A DNA stretch of 41,056 nucleotides from Chitinophaga pinensis (GTDB taxonomy: Bacteria; Bacteroidota; Bacteroidia; Flavobacteriales_D; Crocinitomicaceae), in the NCBI GenBank assembly GCA_943324565.2, contig CALPMC020000017.1, positions 1 to 41,056 on the forward strand, written 5' to 3'. Of this stretch, positions 24,587 through 38,334 are shown piece after piece (the stretch's first letter is position 1; every line of letters begins with the position of its first letter). The notes beneath the pieces are model-generated. The model did not search any database. It was not told the origin of the DNA and saw nothing but the letters and a program-made list of their open reading frames with translations. Position numbers and translations under genes: made by a program.

Positions 24587-25705
24587 CTATTTGTTGGATT
24601 GTTTGTTATCAAATTGTTCAATGAGATACCTTTTCCCCTTTTCTATTTCGTTAATCAATTCATTTTCTGTGGGAAGATAAGGTAGGTATTTTGTTGCAAA
24701 CAATTGTTGGTTTTCACTTAGAACAGAATATTTGGCAATTGTTTTGTCTGTTTCTGTACAAAGTAAAATACCAATTGTCGGATTATCTGATTCTTGTTTT
24801 CTCAAATCATTAAACATCCGAACATACATATCCAATTGACCGATGTCTTGGTGGGTAATTTTATGCGTCTTTAGCTCTACAATTACAAAACATTTCAAAA
24901 TGTAATTGTAAAAAACTAAGTCTATGTAAAAGTTTGCTGTTTCAGTTCTAACTAATTGTTGCCTCTCAATAAAAGCGTATCCTTTCCCCAATTCAAGAAT
25001 AAATTTCTGAAGGTTATCAATCAAGGCTTTTTCAAATTCCGCTTCTGTATAAGCGAGATTAACAGGTAAATTGAGAAATTCCAAAACGGAAGGATTTTTA
25101 ATAAATTCAAAGCTTTCGTTTTGATTTGATTCATTTTTTTCTTTCATTTCTTTCTCAACCTCGTTCTTTGACTGTGATGATAATAATCGCTGATAATAAA
25201 GTGTAGAAATATTTCTTTCCAATGTGCGAACAGACCAATTATTGAGAGCCGTTTCTTTTAGGTAATATGCTCTTGCATTTTCATCTTTAACACGCATAAT
25301 TAATTGATAATGCGACCAGTTAATAAACTCTGAAAGTCTTGAAGATACAGGTTTTTCAAATTGGGCAGACAGTGTCTGCCCAATTGCGTTGAATTCGCCA
25401 GACAGTGTCTGGCGAATTTGAATTAAATCAGGAAACGATAGATAAAATATTCTAAATGATTTAAGATTTGTAACTGAATAACCTTTCCCCAAATCTGCAA
25501 GAAGTTCATTTGACAAATTCACTAAAATTTCTTTTCCATAGTTTGCTTTTTTATTTCCATTTTGTTCTTCTTCCACGATACGTTTTCCAACCAACCAATA
25601 CGCTTCAATCATTGCTGTATTGACTGCGGAATAAGCTTTTTTGCGTGCGCTATTAAGAATTTGTTTAATCTCTAAAACATACGTTTGATTTGTTCCTTTC
25701 TTCAT
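24587..25705 (-). CDS. PDDEXK nuclease domain protein (DUF1016/YhcG family)
   Basis: 372 residues. The N-terminal DUF1016_N part (about 1-175: KQILNSARKKAYSAVNTAMIEAYWLVGKRIVEEEQ, KGYSVTNLKSFRIFYLSFP, WSHYQLIMRVKDENARAYYLKETALNNWSVRTLERNI) is a DNA- or nucleoprotein-binding module. The C-terminal half carries a PD-(D/E)XK nuclease core: Asp in FYIDLVFYN, and ELK in KCFVIVELKTHK. YhcG homologues are often found near restriction-modification loci and are believed to be mobile accessory nucleases; no methyltransferase gene is close here. Residues ~96-115 are encoded by two palindromes (25361-25383 and 25392-25418). No obvious promoter was seen. Confidence 0.85.
   Translation of the reverse strand: MKKGTNQTYVLEIKQILNSARKKAYSAVNTAMIEAYWLVGKRIVEEEQNGNKKANYGKEILVNLSNELLADLGKGYSVTNLKSFRIFYLSFPDLIQIRQTLSGEFNAIGQTLSAQFEKPVSSRLSEFINWSHYQLIMRVKDENARAYYLKETALNNWSVRTLERNISTLYYQRLLSSQSKNEVEKEMKEKNESNQNESFEFIKNPSVLEFLNLPVNLAYTEAEFEKALIDNLQKFILELGKGYAFIERQQLVRTETANFYIDLVFYNYILKCFVIVELKTHKITHQDIGQLDMYVRMFNDLRKQESDNPTIGILLCTETDKTIAKYSVLSENQQLFATKYLPYLPTENELINEIEKGKRYLIEQFDNKQSNK
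25361..25383. repeat. Perfect palindrome inside the YhcG gene, copy A
   Basis: Arms of 11 bp around a central G. It shares the 13-base core CAGACAGTGTCTG with copy B nine bases downstream. In the minus-strand frame it encodes part of the peptide GQTLSAQF. Confidence 0.8.
25392..25418. repeat. Perfect palindrome inside the YhcG gene, copy B
   Basis: Arms of 13 bp around a central G, with the same CAGACAGTGTCTG core as copy A but different flanks (CGC and GCG). It encodes part of the peptide RQTLSGEF, so the two units give near-repeated protein segments. Confidence 0.8.
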
Positions 25706-25919: not shown

Positions 25920-25927
25920 TATCTTTA
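25920..25927 (+). promoter_or_regulatory. -7-like box (TATCTTTA) of the sigma-factor gene, five bases before TTG
   Basis: TATCTTTA is followed by CTTTA and then TTG at 25933. The same spacing is seen at ATG starts elsewhere in the window, which supports TTG as the initiation codon. Confidence 0.45.
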
Positions 25928-25932
25928 CTTTA

Positions 25933-26487
25933 TTGGATAAGCAAACAAAATATTGGAAGGATTTCTTAAATGGTGACAATGACGCGCTCGCTAAATTATA
26001 CGTGGATTTGTTTGAGCCTTTAGTTCTGAAAGCTATTTATTACACAAAAAAACCTGAAGTCGCTCGGGACATTGTGAGTAGTTTATTCGTCTCTTTATTG
26101 GAATTGGAAGAAGAAGAAAGACTATCGCGTTGGAATAAAATTGAAAGTCATCAAGCTTTATTATTGGCTATAGTTAGAAATAAATGTTTAGATTTCTTAA
26201 AAATTACACAAAATCGAGAGCGAATAAACAATGAACTTTTTGTTGAAACAAACTCCGAAGTTGAAAAGATAGATATGATTGCACATTTGACTTCTTGTAT
26301 TCAAGAATTAAAACCCGATGAAAAACAATTGGTGGAGTTACATTTGCAAGGATTTAGCAACGATGAAATTTCTTTGAAGTTGAATCTAAGTAAAAAAACA
26401 GTTCGTAATAAATTGAGTTTAACAAGAAAGTCTATTTGGAAATTGTGGCACCAAATGATTCTACTAATTGCTTTCGTATGGAGATAA
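25933..26487 (+). CDS. RNA polymerase sigma factor, sigma-70/ECF family
   Basis: 184 residues starting from a TTG. Region 2 covers about 1-75 (FLNGDNDALAKLYVDLFEPLVLKAIYYTKKPEVARDIVSSLFVSLLE), followed by LLLAIVRNKCLDFLK. Region 4 (about 118-175) has ELKPDEKQLVELHLQGFSNDEISLKLNLSKKTVRNKLSLTRKSIWKLW, a helix-turn-helix of the -35/-33 binding type. The short region-3 gap is typical of ECF factors, which respond to an anti-sigma partner. Its stop overlaps the next ATG by ten bases, so the two products are made together, as for a sigma/anti-sigma pair. Target promoters are not known. Confidence 0.85.
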   Translation: MDKQTKYWKDFLNGDNDALAKLYVDLFEPLVLKAIYYTKKPEVARDIVSSLFVSLLELEEEERLSRWNKIESHQALLLAIVRNKCLDFLKITQNRERINNELFVETNSEVEKIDMIAHLTSCIQELKPDEKQLVELHLQGFSNDEISLKLNLSKKTVRNKLSLTRKSIWKLWHQMILLIAFVWR

Positions 26488-27212
26488 AAGATTTAAAGAA
26501 GCTCTTAGATAATCCTGCTCAACTTCAAGTTGAAATAGAAATACTACGCACAAACGCTAATGTTTCTGAAGAAATAAATGGTTTCATTGTGCTTTACGAT
26601 AGTTTTGAAGGGGATTGCGAATCAATCAAGAAATATCTAGTTTCTACTGAAACACAAATTCTTGCGCCTTTGCAAGCAAAATCTACTTCATTTTCGTTTT
26701 TAAAATATGCTGCTGGAATTGCTTTCTTAATTGGACTTGGTGGCTATTTCTATTTTTATTCAACTCCTAAGAATAATCTTACTTCAAAAACTGCTGATAA
26801 AAAAGATCTTTTTGTTGAACCTGGAATACCAATTTATATGGGTGAAACTTCAAAAATAGCTTGGGAAAAATTGATGTTTGCTATTAAAAAAGAAAGTACA
26901 TCAAAAGCAATTTCAGAATGGCGAAAAATTCAAAAAATAGCACCTGAAAATGATACCGTTCTTTATTTTGGTGGTCTTGTTTATTTCAACGCGAATCAAA
27001 TACAAAAAGCTGAAAAATATTTTAAGCAAAACCGTCTAATTCAAAGTACTTACAACGACCGTTCACTTTATTTCATAGCTATGATAGATTGGAAACGAAA
27101 CAAGCGAGAAGACGCAAAGAAAAAGTTCCAACAACTCACTTCTTCAACAGATTTAGAACTTAAAAAAGCCGCTAAGAATCGTATTGAAGAAATTGATAAC
27201 ACTTCAGAATAA
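26478..27212 (+). CDS. Putative membrane anti-sigma factor with extracytoplasmic TPR-like domain
   Basis: 244 residues starting at the ATG that overlaps the sigma-factor stop. Residues 1-73 are soluble and cytoplasmic in the predicted topology, one membrane helix runs at about 74-94 (FLKYAAGIAFLIGLGGYFYFY), and the rest is outside. The C-terminal part (about 125-240) is helical with TPR-like pairs (WEKLMFAIKKESTSKAISEWRKIQ, DTVLYFGGLVYFNANQIQKAEKYFKQN, YFIAMIDWKRNKREDAKKKFQQL). The anti-sigma role is inferred from overlap with the sigma gene and the topology; no classical zinc motif is seen. The C-terminal part may sense an envelope signal. Confidence 0.65.
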   Translation: MEIKDLKKLLDNPAQLQVEIEILRTNANVSEEINGFIVLYDSFEGDCESIKKYLVSTETQILAPLQAKSTSFSFLKYAAGIAFLIGLGGYFYFYSTPKNNLTSKTADKKDLFVEPGIPIYMGETSKIAWEKLMFAIKKESTSKAISEWRKIQKIAPENDTVLYFGGLVYFNANQIQKAEKYFKQNRLIQSTYNDRSLYFIAMIDWKRNKREDAKKKFQQLTSSTDLELKKAAKNRIEEIDNTSE

Positions 27213-27216
27213 AAAA

Positions 27217-27243
27217 GAGTTGACTTAATTTCTAAATCAACTC
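27217..27243. terminator. Terminator between anti-sigma and Fic genes
   Basis: GAGTTGA pairs with TCAACTC, followed after one C-A mismatch by TTA/TAA and a five-base loop. A-runs lie before and T-runs after, so it can act for both the plus-strand sigma unit and the minus-strand Fic gene (stop at 27253). Confidence 0.7.
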
Positions 27244-27252
27244 ATTAGTTTT

Positions 27253-28212
27253 TCAATTTTTCCGTTGGCGTTTTCTATTTACCATATAAGAATTCACTGC
27301 GTTTTTAGATGTGTACCAAACATTTCCTTCTTTATAGGCATCAATCTTACCTTGTCGAGCCAAAAGACTCAGATATTCCTGTCCATAAGGCATGCGCTCT
27401 TCTTCGATTAAGGTAGTGATAGATGAATATTCGTAGGTTGAACCTGGTAGTGCAGCCAAATAAATATTCAAGGTACGTTCAACGGCCTGAATCATTAACA
27501 ATTGAAGTTTCTTATATTGTCCATTGTTTGCTTGGTTCAGTGCTTCATAATACTTTTTTCGATCGGCACGTAGAATTATTGCAGGTGGATAGCCATTTCG
27601 CAATAAAAGCAGGTTCATCGCCAAACGAACGGTCCTTCCATTTCCATCAAAATAAGGATGAATCCAAACAAAGCGATGGTGAAAAAGTGTTGCCAAACTG
27701 ACCATATCCAAGCCATTTGGATTTAACTGAATCCATTCGATAAGTTCGTCAAACAACTCACTTACTTTTGAGGCAGCTGGTGGAGTGAAATTTGCACCAT
27801 TGATTCGGACATTTCCTGTACGGATTCTACCAGCATAATGTTCTTCGATGTTATTTAATACGATTTCGTGCAATTTCAAAATATCAATACCCCGAACTGG
27901 TTCTGAAGCAGCAGCCAATTGATATAAAAAAGAAATCGCTTTGTGGTGATTGAACGTTTCAAAATGCTCCCGAAGGCTTTTCCCTTTTACTGTCACACCT
28001 TCCTCGAGAATCATTTGGGTTTCACGTAACGTAATGGTGTTTCCTTCAATGGCATTGGAATTATAGGTCCACTCTAGTGCAAGATTCGTTTTAATTTTCT
28101 CAACGATAAATGTTGGCAAAGGACGATGTGTATCCAATTCCCTTTTCTTGGATTCCAACCTTGAAAGGTGAACGTTGATTTCATCATCTACAATAAATTG
28201 ATTCTTCCACAT
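27253..28212 (-). CDS. Fic family protein (AMP-transferase type)
   Basis: 319 residues. The catalytic loop HPYFDGNGR starts at His185 and matches HPFxDGNGR, the motif of enzymes that add AMP (or another nucleotide part) to target hydroxyl groups. The N-terminal segment WTYNSNAIEGNTITL has the inhibitory helix S/TxxxEG (Ser52 to Glu56-Gly57), so the enzyme should be self-inhibited, as in class II Fic proteins. The C-terminal ~70 residues (YEYSSITTLIEEERMPYGQEYLSLLARQGKIDAYKEGNVWYTSKNAVNSYM) look like a winged helix-turn-helix. No antitoxin gene is paired. It stands between the sigma unit and the CHAT gene with its own -7 box. Confidence 0.92.
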   Translation of the reverse strand: MWKNQFIVDDEINVHLSRLESKKRELDTHRPLPTFIVEKIKTNLALEWTYNSNAIEGNTITLRETQMILEEGVTVKGKSLREHFETFNHHKAISFLYQLAAASEPVRGIDILKLHEIVLNNIEEHYAGRIRTGNVRINGANFTPPAASKVSELFDELIEWIQLNPNGLDMVSLATLFHHRFVWIHPYFDGNGRTVRLAMNLLLLRNGYPPAIILRADRKKYYEALNQANNGQYKKLQLLMIQAVERTLNIYLAALPGSTYEYSSITTLIEEERMPYGQEYLSLLARQGKIDAYKEGNVWYTSKNAVNSYMVNRKRQRKN

Positions 28213-28228
28213 ACTATCGGGTAAGTCA

Positions 28229-28236
28229 CAAATTTA
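28229..28236 (-). promoter_or_regulatory. -7 box (TAAATTTG) of the Fic gene
   Basis: On the minus strand TAAATTTG is a full match to TAnnTTTG, 16 bases before the ATG. Confidence 0.5.
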
Positions 28237-28298
28237 ATCTTTCCGATGTTAAATTTAAAACATTTTCCAACTTATTTTAGAAATCTAATTAATGAAAT

Positions 28299-30650
28299 TC
28301 AATTCTCTTCCCAATACAAATAAAACCGTAACACAATTGCAATCAAAACTAAAAGCACTAAATACGCTTGCCAGGATTTATCTGATATTGGTTCTGGGGC
28401 TAAACGTAGGTCTTTTACGTTGGAGGTGAGTTCGTAGGTTGACCAATATTGTGGATGAGCCTCAATTCCTGTATGCGTTTTTAAATAATCCAATTTTGCT
28501 AATTGTAATGCATCTTCTACTGTTTCTCCTTTGAAAAGATAGTGATAAAATTTCTCAAAAATATAGGCTGAACTTTGATCTATAGTTTGGTAAGGTGAAG
28601 CAATTACAGCTTTAGCACCTTTAGAAATTAGTTGATTTTGTAAATCACGATCTGGATAAAACATACTTCTTTTGTATGCACCAAAACATAAATTTAAAAT
28701 AAATAAGTCAGTTTTAATTCGCTGGTTTCCTATTAAATCTTTTTTCAATTGATTTGATTGCAAATAGTTGGTATAAGATTGTCTGTCTTTTTCCAATTTC
28801 AAATTTCCGTGACCAATAATATGAGCTATTCCGTTATCATTTAAATTTATAAATCGTAAAGGTTTTATTCTTTTTCTATTGAAATTAGTAAAAATCGATT
28901 GTGAAAAAGGCAATCTATCTTTACTATTAATGTCAGTATAAAATGGAACTATTTTTCCTTTAATTAGTAAATCAGTTGAAGGATATATTGAAAAAAAATC
29001 AATTGGATTATATATTTTAATTACATTAATTTTACTTTTAAAATAGTTTAATTCTTCAAATGAATCACCTAATGTGTCCATAATCATCACATCAAAATTT
29101 TCATGAATATCAATTGCTACATACAGCTTTGAAATTTTACTTTTTTTAAAAATATGGTTAAATGGTGAAGTTGAAAAATTTTGAAATCCTTTTCTTTTAA
29201 ATTCCGTTAAACCTTCAATCTGTAAACTTGTATAATGTGTTAATGGTAGTCTTTTAAAAGTATCTACATAAAGCCCATCTTTTGTTATTAACACATATTT
29301 CGCTTTATTCATTGCTGCAAAAATCTGAACCATTACCGCATCTTTTTCACTAAGTTTCTTTTGAATTTTATAAAGATTAAGAAGTGTTAACATTTTAACT
29401 TTTATCTCCTCTTTTTTTGATAATGACAGCCCATTTTTCTTAACAAGAAAATCTAATGTTTTACTATAATAAATGTAATTATCGAATGCACTGTACCTCA
29501 AATTATAATTCAAATTTAAATTTTCAATCTCTAACTTATTTAACCAAATATAGATAATGGAAAGCATGGATGTAGGAGATTCTCCATATGAATCGAGGTA
29601 ATTTTTATTTTTTGAAATTAAATACCAATACCAATCATCACGTAGGGATTTATAAATTCGGATAACGGAATAGATTCTTGAATCAAATTTATTTTTAGAA
29701 ATAATGCTGTGAGAAAATGTTTGCAAGACATTCAATAATTGGATATTCTCCGAATTTATATCCTCTATTTTATCTTTCTTCAACTTCTTAATAATTGGCC
29801 ACAAAATCGCATCCCCTTCATGCTGTCTATTTGTACAATAAAAAGCCAACGCAATTAAACTTTTGATGCCATTTGATAAGGTATGATCATTTTTGTCTAA
29901 AACCTTTAAAGCCATTCGATATTCATTAATTGCTTGATTTGCTTTACTTATCTGAAATGCGTAATTCGTAAAATCCGATTTGCTGTTACGAACGCTATAA
30001 CCTACAAGATCCATTATCCGATTTCCTTTTGATCGATGTATAATTGCTTCCTCCTGTTTAAAATGCGGGACTTGATTGATTTTATTTAAAGCAGAATCCA
30101 GATAATAGATTATCGGGAACAACGCTTTATTCATATCTTCTTCTGAATTTGAATAATCTCTTTTAGAATCAAAACGATACAAAAACGTTGTTCCATAAAT
30201 TTGATAAATAAAATGAAAAGGTACTTCTGTTCGAAATTGCCAGTTTTCACTAAGTAGTTCTATTGATTTGTCAGAATAATAGACAGCGGAATCAGCTAAA
30301 ATATGATAATGAAAAAATGCTGCTTTCTGCGAATAATAATACGCTTTGTAAATTGCCGAATTTTTCTTTTTTATTTCATAAGCCGATTTTACTGTCCTAT
30401 TAAATTCATAAAAATTTTCTGTCCAAAAATAAATCTTGGATTGTGTAGTTAAAATTTCATAACGCTGATTCTTACTTAAATTTCTACTTAAAAGCTTGTC
30501 GCACTTTAAAAGTGCAGCATTCAAGCTACCTCTATTTATCAAAAAGGTTAGCTCACTTTTCTTAGTAAGAAACAACTTCTCAGAAACAGTGGCATTTGCG
30601 AAATCAGTTGAAAGAATTAAAACCAGAAATAAAAGAAACCAACTTCGCAT
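28299..30650 (-). CDS. CHAT-domain protease, exported and membrane-anchored
   Basis: 783 residues. Signal peptide MRSWFLLFLVLILSTDFANA. Residues ~30-440 are helical and TPR-like (KCDKLLSRNLSKNQRYEILTTQSKIYF, YYYSQKAAFFHYHILADSAVYYSDKS). The CHAT caspase-like domain spans about 460-745, with catalytic His614 in HIIGHGN and Cys655 in LNLCFGAYK, then AKAVIASPYQTIDQSSAYIFEKFYHYLFKGETVEDALQLAK. A C-terminal helix (AYLVLLVLIAIVLRFYLYWEE) would anchor it, placing the protease outside the cytoplasm. Bacteroidota CHAT proteins often lie near sigma/anti-sigma genes (from memory). Here the sigma unit is 1 kb away with the Fic gene between. Confidence 0.85.
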   Translation of the reverse strand: MRSWFLLFLVLILSTDFANATVSEKLFLTKKSELTFLINRGSLNAALLKCDKLLSRNLSKNQRYEILTTQSKIYFWTENFYEFNRTVKSAYEIKKKNSAIYKAYYYSQKAAFFHYHILADSAVYYSDKSIELLSENWQFRTEVPFHFIYQIYGTTFLYRFDSKRDYSNSEEDMNKALFPIIYYLDSALNKINQVPHFKQEEAIIHRSKGNRIMDLVGYSVRNSKSDFTNYAFQISKANQAINEYRMALKVLDKNDHTLSNGIKSLIALAFYCTNRQHEGDAILWPIIKKLKKDKIEDINSENIQLLNVLQTFSHSIISKNKFDSRIYSVIRIYKSLRDDWYWYLISKNKNYLDSYGESPTSMLSIIYIWLNKLEIENLNLNYNLRYSAFDNYIYYSKTLDFLVKKNGLSLSKKEEIKVKMLTLLNLYKIQKKLSEKDAVMVQIFAAMNKAKYVLITKDGLYVDTFKRLPLTHYTSLQIEGLTEFKRKGFQNFSTSPFNHIFKKSKISKLYVAIDIHENFDVMIMDTLGDSFEELNYFKSKINVIKIYNPIDFFSIYPSTDLLIKGKIVPFYTDINSKDRLPFSQSIFTNFNRKRIKPLRFINLNDNGIAHIIGHGNLKLEKDRQSYTNYLQSNQLKKDLIGNQRIKTDLFILNLCFGAYKRSMFYPDRDLQNQLISKGAKAVIASPYQTIDQSSAYIFEKFYHYLFKGETVEDALQLAKLDYLKTHTGIEAHPQYWSTYELTSNVKDLRLAPEPISDKSWQAYLVLLVLIAIVLRFYLYWEEN

Positions 30651-30655
30651 TTTTA

Positions 30656-30663
30656 TAAATATA
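30656..30663 (-). promoter_or_regulatory. -7-like box (TATATTTA) of the CHAT gene, five bases before ATG
   Basis: On the minus strand TATATTTA is followed by TAAAA and then the ATG, the same five-base gap as at uvrA, dxr and cphB. Confidence 0.45.
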
Positions 30664-30964: not shown

Positions 30965-32110
30965 ATGGAAATAATAAAAAGAGCAATCCTAACTGATTTT
31001 CAAACACAGATAAAGCCCGGCAAAGTTTTAATATTACTTGGGGCAAGAAGGGTTGGAAAAACACATTTATTGAAACAAGTAATAGCTAATTTGGACGAAA
31101 GTTTAACCTTAATTTTGAATGGTGAAGATCAAAAAACAATCGATAGAATGGAGATTCGCTCTGTTGAGAATTATAAATTATTACTTGGAAACGCAAAATA
31201 CCTGATCATCGATGAAGCTCAAAATATTCCTGATATAGGGTTAAAACTAAAACTTATTGTTGATGAAATTCCAACAATTCATGTGATTGTTTCGGGTTCT
31301 TCTATGTTCGAATTGAACAATAAATTAGGTGAACCACTGGTTGGACGTTCACATATTGTACAACTTTTTCCATTTGCTCAATTAGAATATCAAAACCAAG
31401 AAAACCTTATTGAAACAGACGCAAGGTTGGAACAGCGTTTGATTTTTGGTTCTTATCCCGAACTATTACATTTAGCTACTATTGATGAAAAAACGGATTA
31501 TATAGAAGGATTGGTTAACAGCTATTTATTAAAGGATATATTAGCTTACGAGGGTATAAAAAAAGCGGATAAAATAATCGATTTATTACGGTTAATTGCT
31601 TTCCAAATTGGAAGTGAAGTAAGTATAGATGAACTTGCATTGAACCTTAAAGGAATAAGTAGAAATACCATTGAGACGTATTTAGATTTACTTTCCAAAG
31701 TATTCATTATCTATCCAGTAAAAGGGTTTAGTCGAAATTTACGAAAAGAAATAAGCAAATCCAATAGATGGTATTTTTACGATAATGGTATTCGCAATGC
31801 ACTCATTCGGAATTATAATCCATTAAATCTACGTAATGACATTGGTCAGTTGTGGGAAAATTACCTAATGGCTGAACGATTGAAAGTAAATAACTACCTT
31901 AAAAGACGTGTTAACACCTATTTCTGGCGAACATATGACCAACAAGAAATAGATTTAATCGAAGAATCAGGTACGAATTTGGCGGCATTTGAATTCAAAT
32001 GGAATAAAAACAAGGTTAAAATACCAACAGCTTGGAAAAACAATTATCACGATGCAACATTTGAAGTAATCAATAATGAAAATTACATCCCTTTTGTTCT
32101 TGGAAAATAG
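30965..32110 (+). CDS. AAA family ATPase with DUF4143 (putative nuclease-fold) domain
   Basis: 381 residues. Walker A GARRVGKT at residues 26-33 and Walker B YLIIDEAQ with Asp83-Glu84; the sensor region is HVIVSGSSMFELNNKLGEPLVGRSHIVQLFPFA, typical of the family. The C-terminal DUF4143 part holds SYLLKDILAYEGIKKADKIIDLLRLIAFQIGSEV and SRNTIETYLDLLSKVFIIYPV, then FYDNGIRNALI, and ends with YFWRTYDQQEIDLIEESGTNLAAFEFKW, a PD-(D/E)XK-like pattern. The role of the family is unknown; many members lie in variable genome regions. It has its own promoter and stands next to the first copy of the composite repeat. Confidence 0.88.
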   Translation: MEIIKRAILTDFQTQIKPGKVLILLGARRVGKTHLLKQVIANLDESLTLILNGEDQKTIDRMEIRSVENYKLLLGNAKYLIIDEAQNIPDIGLKLKLIVDEIPTIHVIVSGSSMFELNNKLGEPLVGRSHIVQLFPFAQLEYQNQENLIETDARLEQRLIFGSYPELLHLATIDEKTDYIEGLVNSYLLKDILAYEGIKKADKIIDLLRLIAFQIGSEVSIDELALNLKGISRNTIETYLDLLSKVFIIYPVKGFSRNLRKEISKSNRWYFYDNGIRNALIRNYNPLNLRNDIGQLWENYLMAERLKVNNYLKRRVNTYFWRTYDQQEIDLIEESGTNLAAFEFKWNKNKVKIPTAWKNNYHDATFEVINNENYIPFVLGK

Positions 32111-34037: not shown

Positions 34038-37000
34038 TTATTGTTTTATAATTTTAATTGCTTTTGCAGTTGATTTATCAATTTGTAAGAAATAGGAACC
34101 TTTAGAAATTTCCTGAACATCTATGGTTTGAATCAATGAATTAATTTTTCCTTGAGAAATTATTCTTCCAGAAAAATCAGTGATTACATAGCCTTTTCCT
34201 AACAAATCGTTTGAAACATTCAATGTAAATTTATCATTGGTTGGGTTCGGATAAACATTTATTGTTGACAATACTTCCTCACTTATTCCAATTACGCCAT
34301 TATCCACAATATTTGACTTTGAAAGACCATAATTCATTATTTTAGTTGGATCACAATTGTTTGGATTTACAATTTCAATTTGGTAAAATAATGGTCCAGT
34401 TGGTGGAGTTAAATCTGTATATGAATTCAAATTACTTTGAATTGTTGTTAAAAGTGCCATATTTGATAAACTCGTTCCTCTGTAAATTCTATAACTTCCA
34501 AAAGTTAATCCTTCATAGTGACTCCAAATTAAATTCCAAGAATTACCAACTCCTTGGTTTATAGTTAAATGAATGGTTTTGTGAAAATCTCCAACATTTG
34601 ATTCAGTTCCACACGTATCTAAAGCTGAGATTTTATAACGATAGGCTTGAACAGCAGGATTTGAATTAGCATCTAAGAAAACTGCTAATTGATTGTAATC
34701 TGTTGCGCCGATTTTTGTGTAAACATTGGATACATTACTTTCTTTATAAACGTAGAATGAATCAATACCCAAAGTCAACGGTTTTTCCCAAACGATTCTG
34801 TTTTCGTTTGTTAATGAGTCCATACCAACGATACAAACTTGTGGAGGTGCAACAAAAGAGGCATTTACATTGAATGGAGCAGAAGTTGATGAACAACCAT
34901 TTGCGTTTGTCACAGATACCGAGTAAGCACCTGAACTAGAAACATTAATATTTTGAGTTGTAGCTCCGGTTGACCAATTGTAAGTAGTGTAACTTCCGGC
35001 ATTCAAAGTAACCGAACCTCCCACACATGGTTGAATTGTTCCTGAAGAAGTAATTATCGGTGTTGATGGGGCAGAAAAAATTGTTACCACCACATCTCCT
35101 GAAGTTATTGGACAATTGTTTACCGAAATTATTACAGAATATGTTCCGGATTGTGAAACCTGCAAACTATCGTTGTTATTTCCTGGAATAGTTACACCAT
35201 TTCTGCGCCATTGATAAGTAAACGATGGATCGCTATTACACGATAACCAAAGTGGTGTTCCTTGACATGCTTGTTGCGGACTTGTTTGACTAATTGCAGC
35301 TGTATGCGTACAACTCAAACCACCCGTACAGAAAATATAATCTGAAAGCGTAGTAGTATCTGAACAACCTGTTGTGTTGCTGGTAGAAATCAATGAAACA
35401 GTATATTGTCCATTGTACAAGTACTGATGAAACACGGACGCATTGTTAGAAGCAAGTGTTGTACCATCTCCAAAATCCCAAGTGAAGGAATAATTTGCAG
35501 CATTGGCAGTTGAATTTGTGAACTGCACAGCAAATGGCGGAGCAGTGTACAATTGTTGAGCGCTTGAGAAGGTTGGGTTGAAATTATTCGGTATAAAAGA
35601 AAGATTCAATGTTGAAATACTATCACAACCTGTTAGGAAGCTTGAAAAAGTTTGCTGATATTGACCTGGTGAATTATATTGTTGGTCATTCCAAGTATAA
35701 CTTGAACCGGGACAAATAGAAACATTAAAGGAGTTATAAACAGGCGAAATTGAGGTTAAATCATATATAACCAAAGAATCACAACCGTATAATGCCGGTT
35801 GATTTGAATAAGCAAAGAAATATCCAGACTGATTTGAAATATAACCATAGCCATCAATATAAAAAGTATCCAAGTAACAGGCTACAATTGAAGTATCTCG
35901 CCAATTTTGATGAAAATTTAAGTTAAGCGTATTGACAGAATCACAACCAACGGAATTAATTAAAACATGATTAAATTGACCTGATTCATAATAGGTTTGA
36001 TTGTTTGAAGGCCATGTGTAGCTATTCGATGTTGCATAAACTTGACTTCCATTTTGAATAACCGCTAAATCGCAAACAGAGATGTTTTGGATATTAAATG
36101 ATGAATTTGAGCTACAATCAACTATTCTTGAAATTTTATTTTTATTGGCTCCATTAAAACTAGTAAAGCCCCCTCCTACGACTATCTTTCCATCGGACTG
36201 TATTTTAATAGCTAAGGGAGGATAGTCGGAAGTATTAATGGAACTAAATCCAGTTCCTGAGTTAAAGCTATTATCTATTGAGCCATCAATATTTATTCGG
36301 ACAATGTGATTAGATGAAACTCCATTAAAAGAAGTAAAACCTCCAATTGCTATTATTTTTCCGTCGGGCTGTAATGAAATATCATTAGGTGGATAGTTAA
36401 ATCCATTGCTGATAATAAAAGTAGGATCAATAGATCCATTTTGATTTAAGCGAACCATTCCATTTGCAGAAACTCCATTATAAATAGTAAAACTACCTGC
36501 AAGAATAATCTTACCATCAGGTTGCAGAGCAGCCATTGGAAAAAGGTTGTCTACACTTGTTCCAGGATCAAAAGTAAAATCAATAGATCCATTTGTATTT
36601 AAGCGAGCTATACCAAATCTATTTGTTCCGTTGTATGAAGAAAAGTTACCTCCACAAAGGATCTTTCCGTCTTGTTGAATTACTAATGCTGAACTTACTG
36701 AACCATCAAAACCAATTCCAACATTAAATGAATTATCTATCGAGCCATCTGTATTTAAACGTATTAAATAATTTACAAGAGTTCCATTAAATTGGCTAAA
36801 ATATCCTCCAACTAAAATTTTGCCATCTGTTTGAACAGCTATTTGAGAAACCCCTCCGTCAAAACCAGTTCCAATATTAAATGAGTTATCTATCGAACCA
36901 TCTGTATTTAGGCGAACTATACGATTTACTGGATAGCCATTATAATTAGTAAAATATCCTCCAACTAAAATTTTTCCATCCGCTTGAAGAGTAATTTTAT

Positions 37001-37283
37001 TCACATCATTATTAAAACCTGTTCCTATATTAAATAAATTATCTAATGAACCATTTTGATTCAAACGAGCCAAACTTATTATTGGTAAACCATTGAAAGA
37101 TGTAAATTGTCCACTGACGATTATTTTTCCATCTGACTGAATTACAACTCCTGAAACATAGCAATTAGGTGAATAATTATTGCTAAAACCAGAACCAATT
37201 TGAAAGGATTGATCTGCAATAAATTGCTGCCCAAAAGAATTAATTTGGATTGCAGCAAATAACAATAAAATTAGTTTTTTCAT
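34038..37283 (-). CDS. Large secreted T9SS protein with delta-60 repeats and PKD/Ig-like domains
   Basis: 1081 residues. Signal peptide MKKLILLLFAAIQINSFGQQ. Residues ~25-400 hold seven delta-60 repeats, each with a QxDGKIxxxGxF core (IQSDGKIIVSGQF, LQADGKILVGGYF, VQTDGKILVGGYF, IQQDGKILCGGNF, LQPDGKIILAGSF, LQPDGKIIAIGGF, IQSDGKIVVGGGF) and RLNxxGSIDxxF between them. Short CDS-type modules (GCDSVNTLNLNF, GCDSLVIYDLT) follow, then a PKD domain (TWDFGDGTTLASNNASVFHQYLYNGQYTVSL), an Ig-like domain, FN3-like segments, and the T9SS sorting domain (INVYPNPTNDKFTLNVSN ... KGSYFLQIDKSTAKAIKIIKQ). It should be exported through the type IX system to the cell surface. Confidence 0.92.
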   Translation of the reverse strand: MKKLILLLFAAIQINSFGQQFIADQSFQIGSGFSNNYSPNCYVSGVVIQSDGKIIVSGQFTSFNGLPIISLARLNQNGSLDNLFNIGTGFNNDVNKITLQADGKILVGGYFTNYNGYPVNRIVRLNTDGSIDNSFNIGTGFDGGVSQIAVQTDGKILVGGYFSQFNGTLVNYLIRLNTDGSIDNSFNVGIGFDGSVSSALVIQQDGKILCGGNFSSYNGTNRFGIARLNTNGSIDFTFDPGTSVDNLFPMAALQPDGKIILAGSFTIYNGVSANGMVRLNQNGSIDPTFIISNGFNYPPNDISLQPDGKIIAIGGFTSFNGVSSNHIVRINIDGSIDNSFNSGTGFSSINTSDYPPLAIKIQSDGKIVVGGGFTSFNGANKNKISRIVDCSSNSSFNIQNISVCDLAVIQNGSQVYATSNSYTWPSNNQTYYESGQFNHVLINSVGCDSVNTLNLNFHQNWRDTSIVACYLDTFYIDGYGYISNQSGYFFAYSNQPALYGCDSLVIYDLTSISPVYNSFNVSICPGSSYTWNDQQYNSPGQYQQTFSSFLTGCDSISTLNLSFIPNNFNPTFSSAQQLYTAPPFAVQFTNSTANAANYSFTWDFGDGTTLASNNASVFHQYLYNGQYTVSLISTSNTTGCSDTTTLSDYIFCTGGLSCTHTAAISQTSPQQACQGTPLWLSCNSDPSFTYQWRRNGVTIPGNNNDSLQVSQSGTYSVIISVNNCPITSGDVVVTIFSAPSTPIITSSGTIQPCVGGSVTLNAGSYTTYNWSTGATTQNINVSSSGAYSVSVTNANGCSSTSAPFNVNASFVAPPQVCIVGMDSLTNENRIVWEKPLTLGIDSFYVYKESNVSNVYTKIGATDYNQLAVFLDANSNPAVQAYRYKISALDTCGTESNVGDFHKTIHLTINQGVGNSWNLIWSHYEGLTFGSYRIYRGTSLSNMALLTTIQSNLNSYTDLTPPTGPLFYQIEIVNPNNCDPTKIMNYGLSKSNIVDNGVIGISEEVLSTINVYPNPTNDKFTLNVSNDLLGKGYVITDFSGRIISQGKINSLIQTIDVQEISKGSYFLQIDKSTAKAIKIIKQ

Positions 37284-37851: not shown

Positions 37852-38334
37852 TTATTTTGCTTGCCATTTAAAATTTAGGTTGCCAGCTTGTTTGAATTGG
37901 TAACTGTTGCTGCTTTTGTCAAAAATCAAAGGGCACTGAAATTCGTTTTTAAGCACGTTTAAATAATTGAATAAACTGCGTTCAGAAATTTCTAGCTGCT
38001 TTGCAAACTGGGCTGCAGAACCGGTATTTTTTTGTTTAATTCCCAAATAAATGCGTTGCAAGGTTGCCAGTTGTTTGTTCTTAAAAACAGCGTCTACCTG
38101 GTCAATCGTTTGGTCTTCATTGTATTTCCAAATCAAAGCGCCACTTTCAGAAAACAAATAGCTTTGCTTGAAATTATTCCACGCAATGGGAGCGTTTAAC
38201 TCCTCGCGAATAAACTTTTTGTAATTGTAAATCATTCGCTCCGAAACGCCCAATAATTTCGCAACATCAGCAGGTTTTCCCGTCTGCTTGCGCTCCACTA
38301 AATGAATGAATTTTCTCAGTTTTTCTAAGTGCAT
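37852..38334 (-). CDS. Tandem helix-turn-helix regulator
   Basis: 160 residues made of two similar halves. Each has an HTH followed by a small strand part: TGKPADVAKLLGVSERMIYNYKKFIREELNAPI...SYLF near residues 17-70, and TGSAAQFAKQLEISERSLFNYLNVLKNEFQCPL...SYQF near 98-150. The common pattern is A-x-x-LxxSERxxxNYxxxxxxE, of the HTH_11/helix-turn-helix type II group. It looks like a DNA-binding protein that could touch two half-sites with one chain. No ligand or sensor domain is present. It is the only regulator between the T9SS gene and the cyanophycin genes, so a target among those is possible (inference). Confidence 0.75.
   Translation of the reverse strand: MHLEKLRKFIHLVERKQTGKPADVAKLLGVSERMIYNYKKFIREELNAPIAWNNFKQSYLFSESGALIWKYNEDQTIDQVDAVFKNKQLATLQRIYLGIKQKNTGSAAQFAKQLEISERSLFNYLNVLKNEFQCPLIFDKSSNSYQFKQAGNLNFKWQAK

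Follow-up and report, generated by a model that had tools for sequence, protein, structure and literature searches.

A membrane-bound relative of separase and caspase that carries a CHAT protease domain is probably, as judged from sequence, the site-1 protease of an extracytoplasmic function (ECF) anti-sigma factor in Chitinophaga pinensis (GTDB family Crocinitomicaceae). The genes concerned lie on a stretch of 41,056 nucleotides, referred to throughout as the window (assembly GCA_943324565.2, contig CALPMC020000017.1, positions 1-41,056), and encode an ECF sigma factor, a membrane anti-sigma-like protein with tetratricopeptide repeats (TPR) and a TPR-CHAT protease. That these three genes form one signalling cascade, with the CHAT protein at its site-1 step, is a reading held with good confidence; with somewhat less confidence, they appear to represent a widespread, undescribed family of regulated proteolysis in the phylum Bacteroidota, in which protease and substrate would be matched by a readable code. 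The evidence comprises the architecture of the proteins, their genomic linkage, an intact His-Cys dyad, a linker of low model confidence in which one residue is invariant, and the co-variation of that residue with positions of the CHAT domain.

The sigma factor gene (25933-26487, plus strand, TTG start) encodes 184 amino acids with Pfam matches to Sigma70_r4_2 (2.2e-11) and Sigma70_ECF (6.1e-10), both over the cut-off, and NCBIfam matches to TIGR02937 (sigma70-ECF, over the cut-off) and TIGR02985 (below its cut-off). The gene of the 244-residue anti-sigma-like protein (26478-27212, plus strand) overlaps it by ten bases, since its ATG stands at 26478 and the sigma stop codon ends at 26487. The TPR-CHAT protease (28299-30650, minus strand, 783 amino acids; stop codon 1086 bases from that of the anti-sigma gene) is the genome's only Pfam CHAT match (PF12770, 2.4e-10, 40.8 bits against a cut-off of 24), and features a signal-like N-terminus, the catalytic residues His614 (codon 28809-28811) and Cys655 (codon 28686-28688), and a C-terminal transmembrane segment at residues 762-780 (28311-28367, hydropathy 2.18). 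This arrangement, including the ten-base overlap and a CHAT gene about one kilobase away, had been given correctly in a preliminary description of the window. The dyad is intact in 112/112 CHAT open reading frames (ORFs), and in 63/64 of a later unlinked set, the remaining one having a gap.

Assignment of the second protein as anti-sigma-like follows from a gene that overlaps and follows its sigma gene, and from a helical N-terminal domain with one transmembrane segment; no known anti-sigma domain family was found among its Pfam and NCBIfam matches up to E=1, and its Pfam TPR_2 match (1.2e-4) is under the Pfam cut-off. An AlphaFold2 model of all 244 residues (mean predicted local distance difference test score, pLDDT, 81.9) comprises a four-helix N-terminal domain at 3-66, a long helix at 74-95 containing the transmembrane segment, and a TPR-type helical array at 129-242, with a disordered linker between membrane and TPR array (pLDDT <50 at 95-108 and 119-124). 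Foldseek matches to the model are TPR domains (best E 5e-4), with no anti-sigma entry in that list. The transmembrane segment is borderline by simple hydropathy in the window (1.59 over 17 residues, under the 19-residue cut-off) and clear in most relatives; the presumed sigma-binding role would place the N-terminus inside the cell. Within the linker, G116 and M121 are invariant across 20 relatives, and the juxtamembrane stretch G116-G122 (26823-26843, plus strand; M121 codon 26838-26840) is the predicted site of cleavage by the CHAT protease.

Linkage of the three genes extends well beyond the window. A search with the window CHAT against 150 genomes of the family gave matches in 35, and 37 stretches around matches were taken; with the window included, a pair of sigma factor and transmembrane partner lies within 200 bp of 25/38 CHAT ORFs and within 4.5 kb of 33/38. 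The window's own genome has 18 matches to the sigma factor region 4 family PF08281 in 3.17 Mb, a density at which some 7% of genes of the size of CHAT are reckoned to have one within 4.5 kb by chance, the 38 CHAT rows not being independent trials because they are related by descent. The 25 pairs within 200 bp are convergent (tail-to-tail) in 23 cases and on the same strand in two, with a divergent arrangement in another locus (L032) and an interrupted one in the window; gene order thus varies among loci, the neighbourhood being kept while its arrangement changes. In the reverse direction, 30 anti-sigma matches above 150 bits were found in the 150 family genomes, and a CHAT gene is present in the fetched stretch for 28 of them.

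Across the phylum, a sample of 59 regions, one per genus, with 61 CHAT ORFs (the strongest hits among the matches listed) places a pair of sigma factor and transmembrane partner within 200 bp of 11/24 membrane-anchored CHATs versus 4/37 unanchored ones (p=0.005), and within 4.5 kb of 13/24 and 11/37, respectively; in this sample, linkage goes with the membrane anchor of CHAT. Regions taken from order and class searches (L201-L260) have a pair within 200 bp of 24/61 CHATs, a rate that is biased because the regions were picked by similarity to linked CHATs. Pruning of ORFs hid sigma or anti-sigma genes in some loci, and 11 such CHATs stand outside the 92 linked pairs analysed below, so the linkage counts are too low to that extent. 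The preliminary description had proposed a sigma/anti-sigma/CHAT group from adjacency and topology, and had named a lack of co-occurrence as the finding that would speak against it; the genes co-occur at each level sampled (family, order/class and phylum), and the three-gene grouping is real and more than chance.

Other CHAT neighbourhoods were seen alongside. At four places (L159 8568-9278, L163 6231-7034, L165 8005-8811, L188 6234-6923), unanchored CHATs of other families adjoin a different membrane protein ending in VGKF or VGRF, which in L159, L163 and L188 stands next to a sigma gene; this is perhaps a second CHAT/anti-sigma pairing. In five further loci (L160, L161, L168, L180, L187), a sigma/anti-sigma-like pair lies 2.5-3.3 kb from an unanchored CHAT, in three of them beyond a segregation-protein-like gene, and the anti-sigma stretch of this group also has an Arg (GVRS, GIRA).

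Most linked anti-sigmas have a conserved stretch after the transmembrane segment, in forms such as DPGLPNYM/S and EPGIPIYM/G in one group versus NVITVR/G, EVSITR/G or LPVNR/G in another (the slash follows the key residue, usually Met, as in M121 of the window, or Arg). A MAFFT alignment of the 92 linked anti-sigmas, made without hints, brings these residues into one column (window 121), which takes the Met of 44/44 M-types and the Arg of 39/40 R-types, the remaining eight rows having Met (4), Lys (2), His (1) or Ala (1) there. The PGLPxxMS stretch also occurs in anti-sigmas that have no CHAT next to them, and was therefore rejected as being, by itself, indicative of CHAT linkage. Three such anti-sigmas (L131, L133, L138) have a CHAT 3-6 kb away; its residues at 586 and 653, in window numbering, are Leu and Asn, as they also are in the unlinked CHATs L051, L064 and L215.

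The identity of this juxtamembrane residue co-varies with CHAT residue 586 (Ile in the window; codon 28893-28895, minus strand), a predicted determinant of the S1 pocket. In a first set, 53 pairs were typed from their anti-sigma sequences and the CHAT column with the largest acid difference was then sought; column 586 is acidic in 19/19 R-types and 6/34 M-types, three of the latter six (L055, L065, L068) later being typed X for an Arg four residues earlier. A held-out set of 39 new pairs, from 60 further regions of the order and class searches and typed before the CHAT residues were read, is acidic at 586 in 20/20 R-types having a residue there (the 21st is truncated) and in 0/13 M-types. The M/R table of the held-out stage leaves out two rows of type '?', two K-types and four X-types, and counts L220 as an R-type with a gap; all rows left out are included in the mechanical reading of the 92 pairs, with L220 left out of the mutual-information scan and the tree. 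Read mechanically, an Arg partner goes with an acidic 586 in 38 pairs and a non-acidic one in none (gap in 1), a Met partner with a non-acidic residue in 41 and an acidic one in 6 (gap in 1), a Lys partner with one of each, and other residues with one acidic and two not. With the two clades nearest the window removed, the contrast persists (Arg 38/38 acidic, Met 3/21; p=2e-12). The window pair combines M121 with Ile586, its CHAT thus being without the acidic S1 anchor on helix alpha1 that is found in Arg-type relatives.

A mutual-information scan with average product correction over 84,912 anti-sigma x CHAT column pairs (78 rows at <60% identity, 366 CHAT columns) ranks 121x653 first, 160x690 second and 121x586 third. 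Residue 653 (Asn in the window; codon 28692-28694, minus strand), a second predicted S1 determinant, lies two before Cys655, presumably the same spacing at which MALT1 Asp462 and TbMCA2 Asp211 precede their catalytic cysteines. Within clan CD, to which CHAT and separase belong, specificity for the P1 residue is described, in the portions of the published sources drawn on here and below, as set by helix alpha1 (MALT1 Asp365, gingipain Asp163, TbMCA2 Asp95), loop L4 (MALT1 Asp462, TbMCA2 Asp211) and L5 (PMC4357240), with separases having an acidic residue at the place of gingipain Asp163 (PMC4626109), and the separase P1 contact also being given as Asp2151, a residue that follows the catalytic Cys (PMC9729208). 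On the structural model of the window CHAT, residue 586 falls on a helix (581-587) between a strand at 566-571 and the strand of the catalytic His (607-614); taking this helix as the alpha1 place, where the model is weak, both 586 and 653 lie in regions on which P1 specificity depends elsewhere in clan CD. Somewhat better than evenly supported is a code in which an Arg site would be matched by an acid on alpha1, with Ser predominating at Cys minus 2, and a Met site by a hydrophobic or small residue on alpha1, with Asn, Thr or Ala predominating at Cys minus 2. The co-variation of the juxtamembrane residue with S1-type positions supports the proposal of the preliminary description that the CHAT protease cuts the anti-sigma protein.

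Loci outside the counted pairs bear on the same columns. Sigma and anti-sigma genes do adjoin five CHATs that had initially been scored as unlinked (L241, L242, L243, L248, L250), all with Met in the anti-sigma column and Thr586 in the CHAT. Near six others with Glu586 (L153, L174, L194, L197, L253, L254), frames resembling the anti-sigma lie no more than 3 kb away; the column in the alignment is Arg in L153, L174 and L254, and an Arg stands close by in the stretch in L194, L197 and L253. Of the 64 CHATs for which no partner was counted, 54 carry Glu586, which is therefore probably the older state, and five of the other ten had hidden Met-type partners. The Lys-type L245 has no acid at 586 and an Asp at 653.

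Several observations weigh against cleavage of the anti-sigma by its linked CHAT. Genome G148, of the window's own genus, keeps a sigma/anti-sigma pair much like that of the window, but its stretch contains no CHAT gene (nor does that of G077, the other such case among the 30 anti-sigma matches) and the genome of G148 has no match to the window CHAT; among the 19 genomes of the genus that were listed, only 2 match the window CHAT; six M-type anti-sigmas (L134, L135, L137, L139, L140, L141) are orphans, with no CHAT in their stretch; and no C-terminal anchor was seen in some linked CHATs, such as L046, L047, L048, L066 and L128. The CHAT model has a mean pLDDT of only 59.6. Column 586 was chosen for having the largest acid difference in the first set, and column 639, nearly as good there (R-types 19/19), failed as a second specificity column in the held-out set, where 18/21 R-types and 12/13 M-types are acidic, and was dropped. 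Clear exceptions pair Met with Glu586 (L126, L128, L129); doubtful ones have Met in the column, the earlier Arg and Glu586 (the three X-typed loci named above), and L251 has a gap. With a reduced alphabet 121x586 ranks seventh, other high pairs having no simple reading. On a CHAT tree built without columns 586 and 653, few switches are needed (three changes of M/R type, five of the state of 586), and a sign test on independent pairs was set aside as having no power (three pairs, one on well-supported branches, all in the expected direction). As side observations on G148, a profile gave two matches in this genome, their places not being listed, and some 760 bases without a long ORF (L122 7279-8041) follow the sigma/anti-sigma pair where a CHAT would be expected.

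These few deep switches leave the worry that they carry the signal, and the co-variation could then reflect shared ancestry of Met-type anti-sigmas and non-acidic CHATs whose genes stay together for another reason, such as a tail-to-tail overlap, which in close relatives amounts to 47-92 bases at the 3' ends of the two genes. The likelihood ratio for correlated evolution on the CHAT tree is 31.2, a value reached by 0/190 simulations of independent evolution (largest 14.1); the two top-ranked CHAT columns for residue 121, of 366, are both of S1 type; the held-out set agreed; and linkage persists in other gene orders, making shared ancestry a rather improbable explanation. Scarcely more probable is that CHAT binds the anti-sigma without cutting it, either as an effector (a death protease, for example) held in check by the TPR part, or with the anti-sigma sensing CHAT: binding would also give linkage and co-variation, and the second-ranked pair joins TPR residue 160 to CHAT residue 690, but the residue that co-varies most strongly lies in the low-confidence linker, its partners 586 and 653 stand at the places where clan CD proteases read P1, and the dyad is conserved in all 112 of the CHAT ORFs first inspected.

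Under the favoured reading, in which CHAT is the site-1 protease, the anti-sigma would hold its sigma factor at the inner membrane through the cytoplasmic helical domain, and the TPR-CHAT protein would be anchored in the same membrane, facing the periplasm. A signal reaching the TPR part of CHAT would lead the His614-Cys655 dyad to cut the linker of the anti-sigma just outside the membrane, after Met121 in the window and after Arg in other lineages, so that the bulky TPR part is shed; release of the sigma factor would be completed by an intramembrane protease of the RseP type. Candidates for this site-2 step are two frames of the window's genome with M50 (PF02163) matches over the cut-off, of 475 (C14) and 324 (C127) amino acids. 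Cleavage is thus expected to activate the sigma factor; the opposite outcome, in which the cut matures or locks the inhibitor, or shuts off the response, would fit the pair kept without a detected CHAT in G148 and is considered very unlikely, as the topology matches known cases in which a site-1 cut ends in release (DegS/RseA; PMC10028731), and as the promoter-like element described below was not seen recurring upstream of CHAT genes, which is expected where CHAT is a sensor and not a target.

The freed sigma factor would transcribe at least small helix-turn-helix (HTH) genes, which in the window are fused, from a promoter of the type GGGAC-N15-TCGAC. One or two such genes stand divergent to sigma in 25/26 close-relative loci (window apart; the exception is L046), and a conserved dyad is found between sigma and HTH genes in 14/21 loci, compared with at most 8 in 20 shuffles. 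GGGAC-N14..16-TCGA, read towards the HTH genes, lies 12-26 bases before the first of them in 15 loci, these 15 being among 24 hits in 413 kb (shuffled sequence gives a mean of 2.3 and a maximum of 6), with 22 hits in 2.08 Mb of other loci. In the window, the HTH pair of the relatives is displaced and joined in one 160-residue gene (37852-38334, minus strand), which the preliminary description had not noticed; GGGAC-N15-TCTAC (38369 to 38345, minus strand; one mismatch to the element of the relatives) was found by eye 10 bases before its ATG. This fused gene is a likely target of the sigma factor, which would read the GGGAC-N15-TCTAC element. The exact form GGGAC-N14..16-TCGAC has 0 occurrences in the window's own genome (reversed-pattern control 1 + 2), and loosened patterns give further window hits, one of them inside the sigma gene (26066-26089). 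Two further possible targets follow downstream of the fused gene on its strand: an ORF of 114 residues and a protein of 1081 residues that carries a type IX sorting domain. In L032 (6126-10195, from the congener G139), one strand, divergent from sigma, carries in order the promoter-like element, a pair of HTH genes, a gene of 182 aa and CHAT, an order in which CHAT may itself be under sigma control, giving positive feedback.

The nearest known systems are Csx29/Csx30 and DdvA. In type III-E CRISPR systems (PMC10028731, PMC9729208), Csx29 is likewise a TPR-CHAT His-Cys protease coupled to an inhibitor of an ECF sigma factor (CASP-sigma), which is cut there and predicted to be cut here; Csx30 is cut between residues 427 and 429, within a flexible loop (PMC10028731). 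Csx29 is in complex with Cas7-11, with RNA as its activator, whereas the window proteins are membrane-anchored and predicted to face the periplasm; the window anti-sigma is not Csx30 (NF041234, 16.2 bits versus a cut-off of 125), no array-like repeats were seen at window 20000-41056, and no Cas7-11 was found among seven window proteins scanned with PADLOC. In Myxococcus xanthus DdvA (PDB 8rot; PMC12288465, PMC4374960), a transmembrane anti-sigma that bears the chain name 'CHAT domain-containing protein', one polypeptide holds both CHAT and ECF anti-sigma, like a fusion of the two genes that encode separate proteins in the window. A CHAT-only profile against solved structures finds DdvA and Csx29 (a full-length profile is swamped by TPR proteins), and the top structural match of the CHAT model is Csx29 (7y9x, Z 18.7, but with an rmsd of 18.7 over 349 residues), with separase also matching (5fc2, Z 18.1, rmsd 3.6 over 278). 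A weak CHAT-profile alignment to Csx29 gives this protein Trp at the place of 586 and Gly at Cys minus 2.

A membrane anti-sigma that is cut on the periplasmic side and further processed, freeing an ECF sigma factor, is familiar from DegS/RseA/RseP. A periplasmic cut of a membrane anti-sigma by a dedicated protease is predicted here, from topology and co-variation; the site-1 enzyme there is a PDZ serine protease, whereas the linked protease here is CHAT/separase-like, a TPR array would be shed, and the predicted P1 residue is Met or Arg. Separase shares the CHAT-domain fold and has Arg at P1 with an acid at the gingipain Asp163 place (PMC4626109); the window CHAT is unlike it in being bacterial, predicted to be periplasmic and linked to an anti-sigma, with Ile at the anchor position and Met at the predicted site.

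The known couplings also raise the question of what the circuit serves. Both are tied to defence in the source passages drawn on (PMC10028731, PMC12288465), and because DdvS, the partner of DdvA, controls an antiphage island (PMC12288465), a circuit built as described but serving phage defence, with infection as the signal and a defence response as the regulon, is a live rival, a minority possibility more probable than the other alternatives. Three of the genes flanking or interrupting the module have matches to candidate defence families in PADLOC: a YhcG/DUF1016 nuclease (24587-25705; PDC-S02), the Fic gene between anti-sigma and CHAT (27253-28212, minus strand, Pfam Fic 9.4e-20; PDC-S04) and an AAA_14/DUF4143 gene (30965-32110; PDC-S01). 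Against this reading, the sensor faces the periplasm, these genes do not recur near CHAT in L032-L068 apart from one AAA_14 in L036, and the products of several genes having the promoter element behind the HTH genes look secreted.

The Fic gene had been left in the preliminary description as either part of the group or an insertion. Searches with phmmer on called ORFs find a homologue beside CHAT in 1/92 linked loci, that locus being the window, and Fic was accordingly rejected as a member of the module and is read as an insertion. The YhcG, Fic and AAA_14 genes are perhaps a small defence-like insertion zone that broke up the module. The YhcG gene contains, at 25359-25418, a palindromic stretch of 27 bases in two nearly identical copies with a spacing of 33 bases. 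The 1081-aa protein behind the fused HTH gene (34038-37283) has DUF5122 propeller repeats (153-base DNA repeats) and a PKD domain besides its sorting domain.

CHAT domains occur in 148/296 sampled genomes of the phylum, and the CHAT substrates met in the literature passages drawn on are Csx30 and gasdermin. Among the matches listed in open-licence PMC full texts, no paper is evidently on this module, and only PMC10028731 has both 'CHAT domain' and 'anti-sigma'. If the site-1 reading is true, a good share of membrane-anchored CHATs would gain a substrate, a site of cleavage and a rule for specificity, and for many CHAT proteases that are still unannotated, sequence could be used to predict both partner and cut site. 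A caspase/separase-type protease would thereby be placed in ordinary bacterial transmembrane signalling, and Csx29 and DdvA would join a wider pattern of CHAT proteases coupled to ECF sigma factors.

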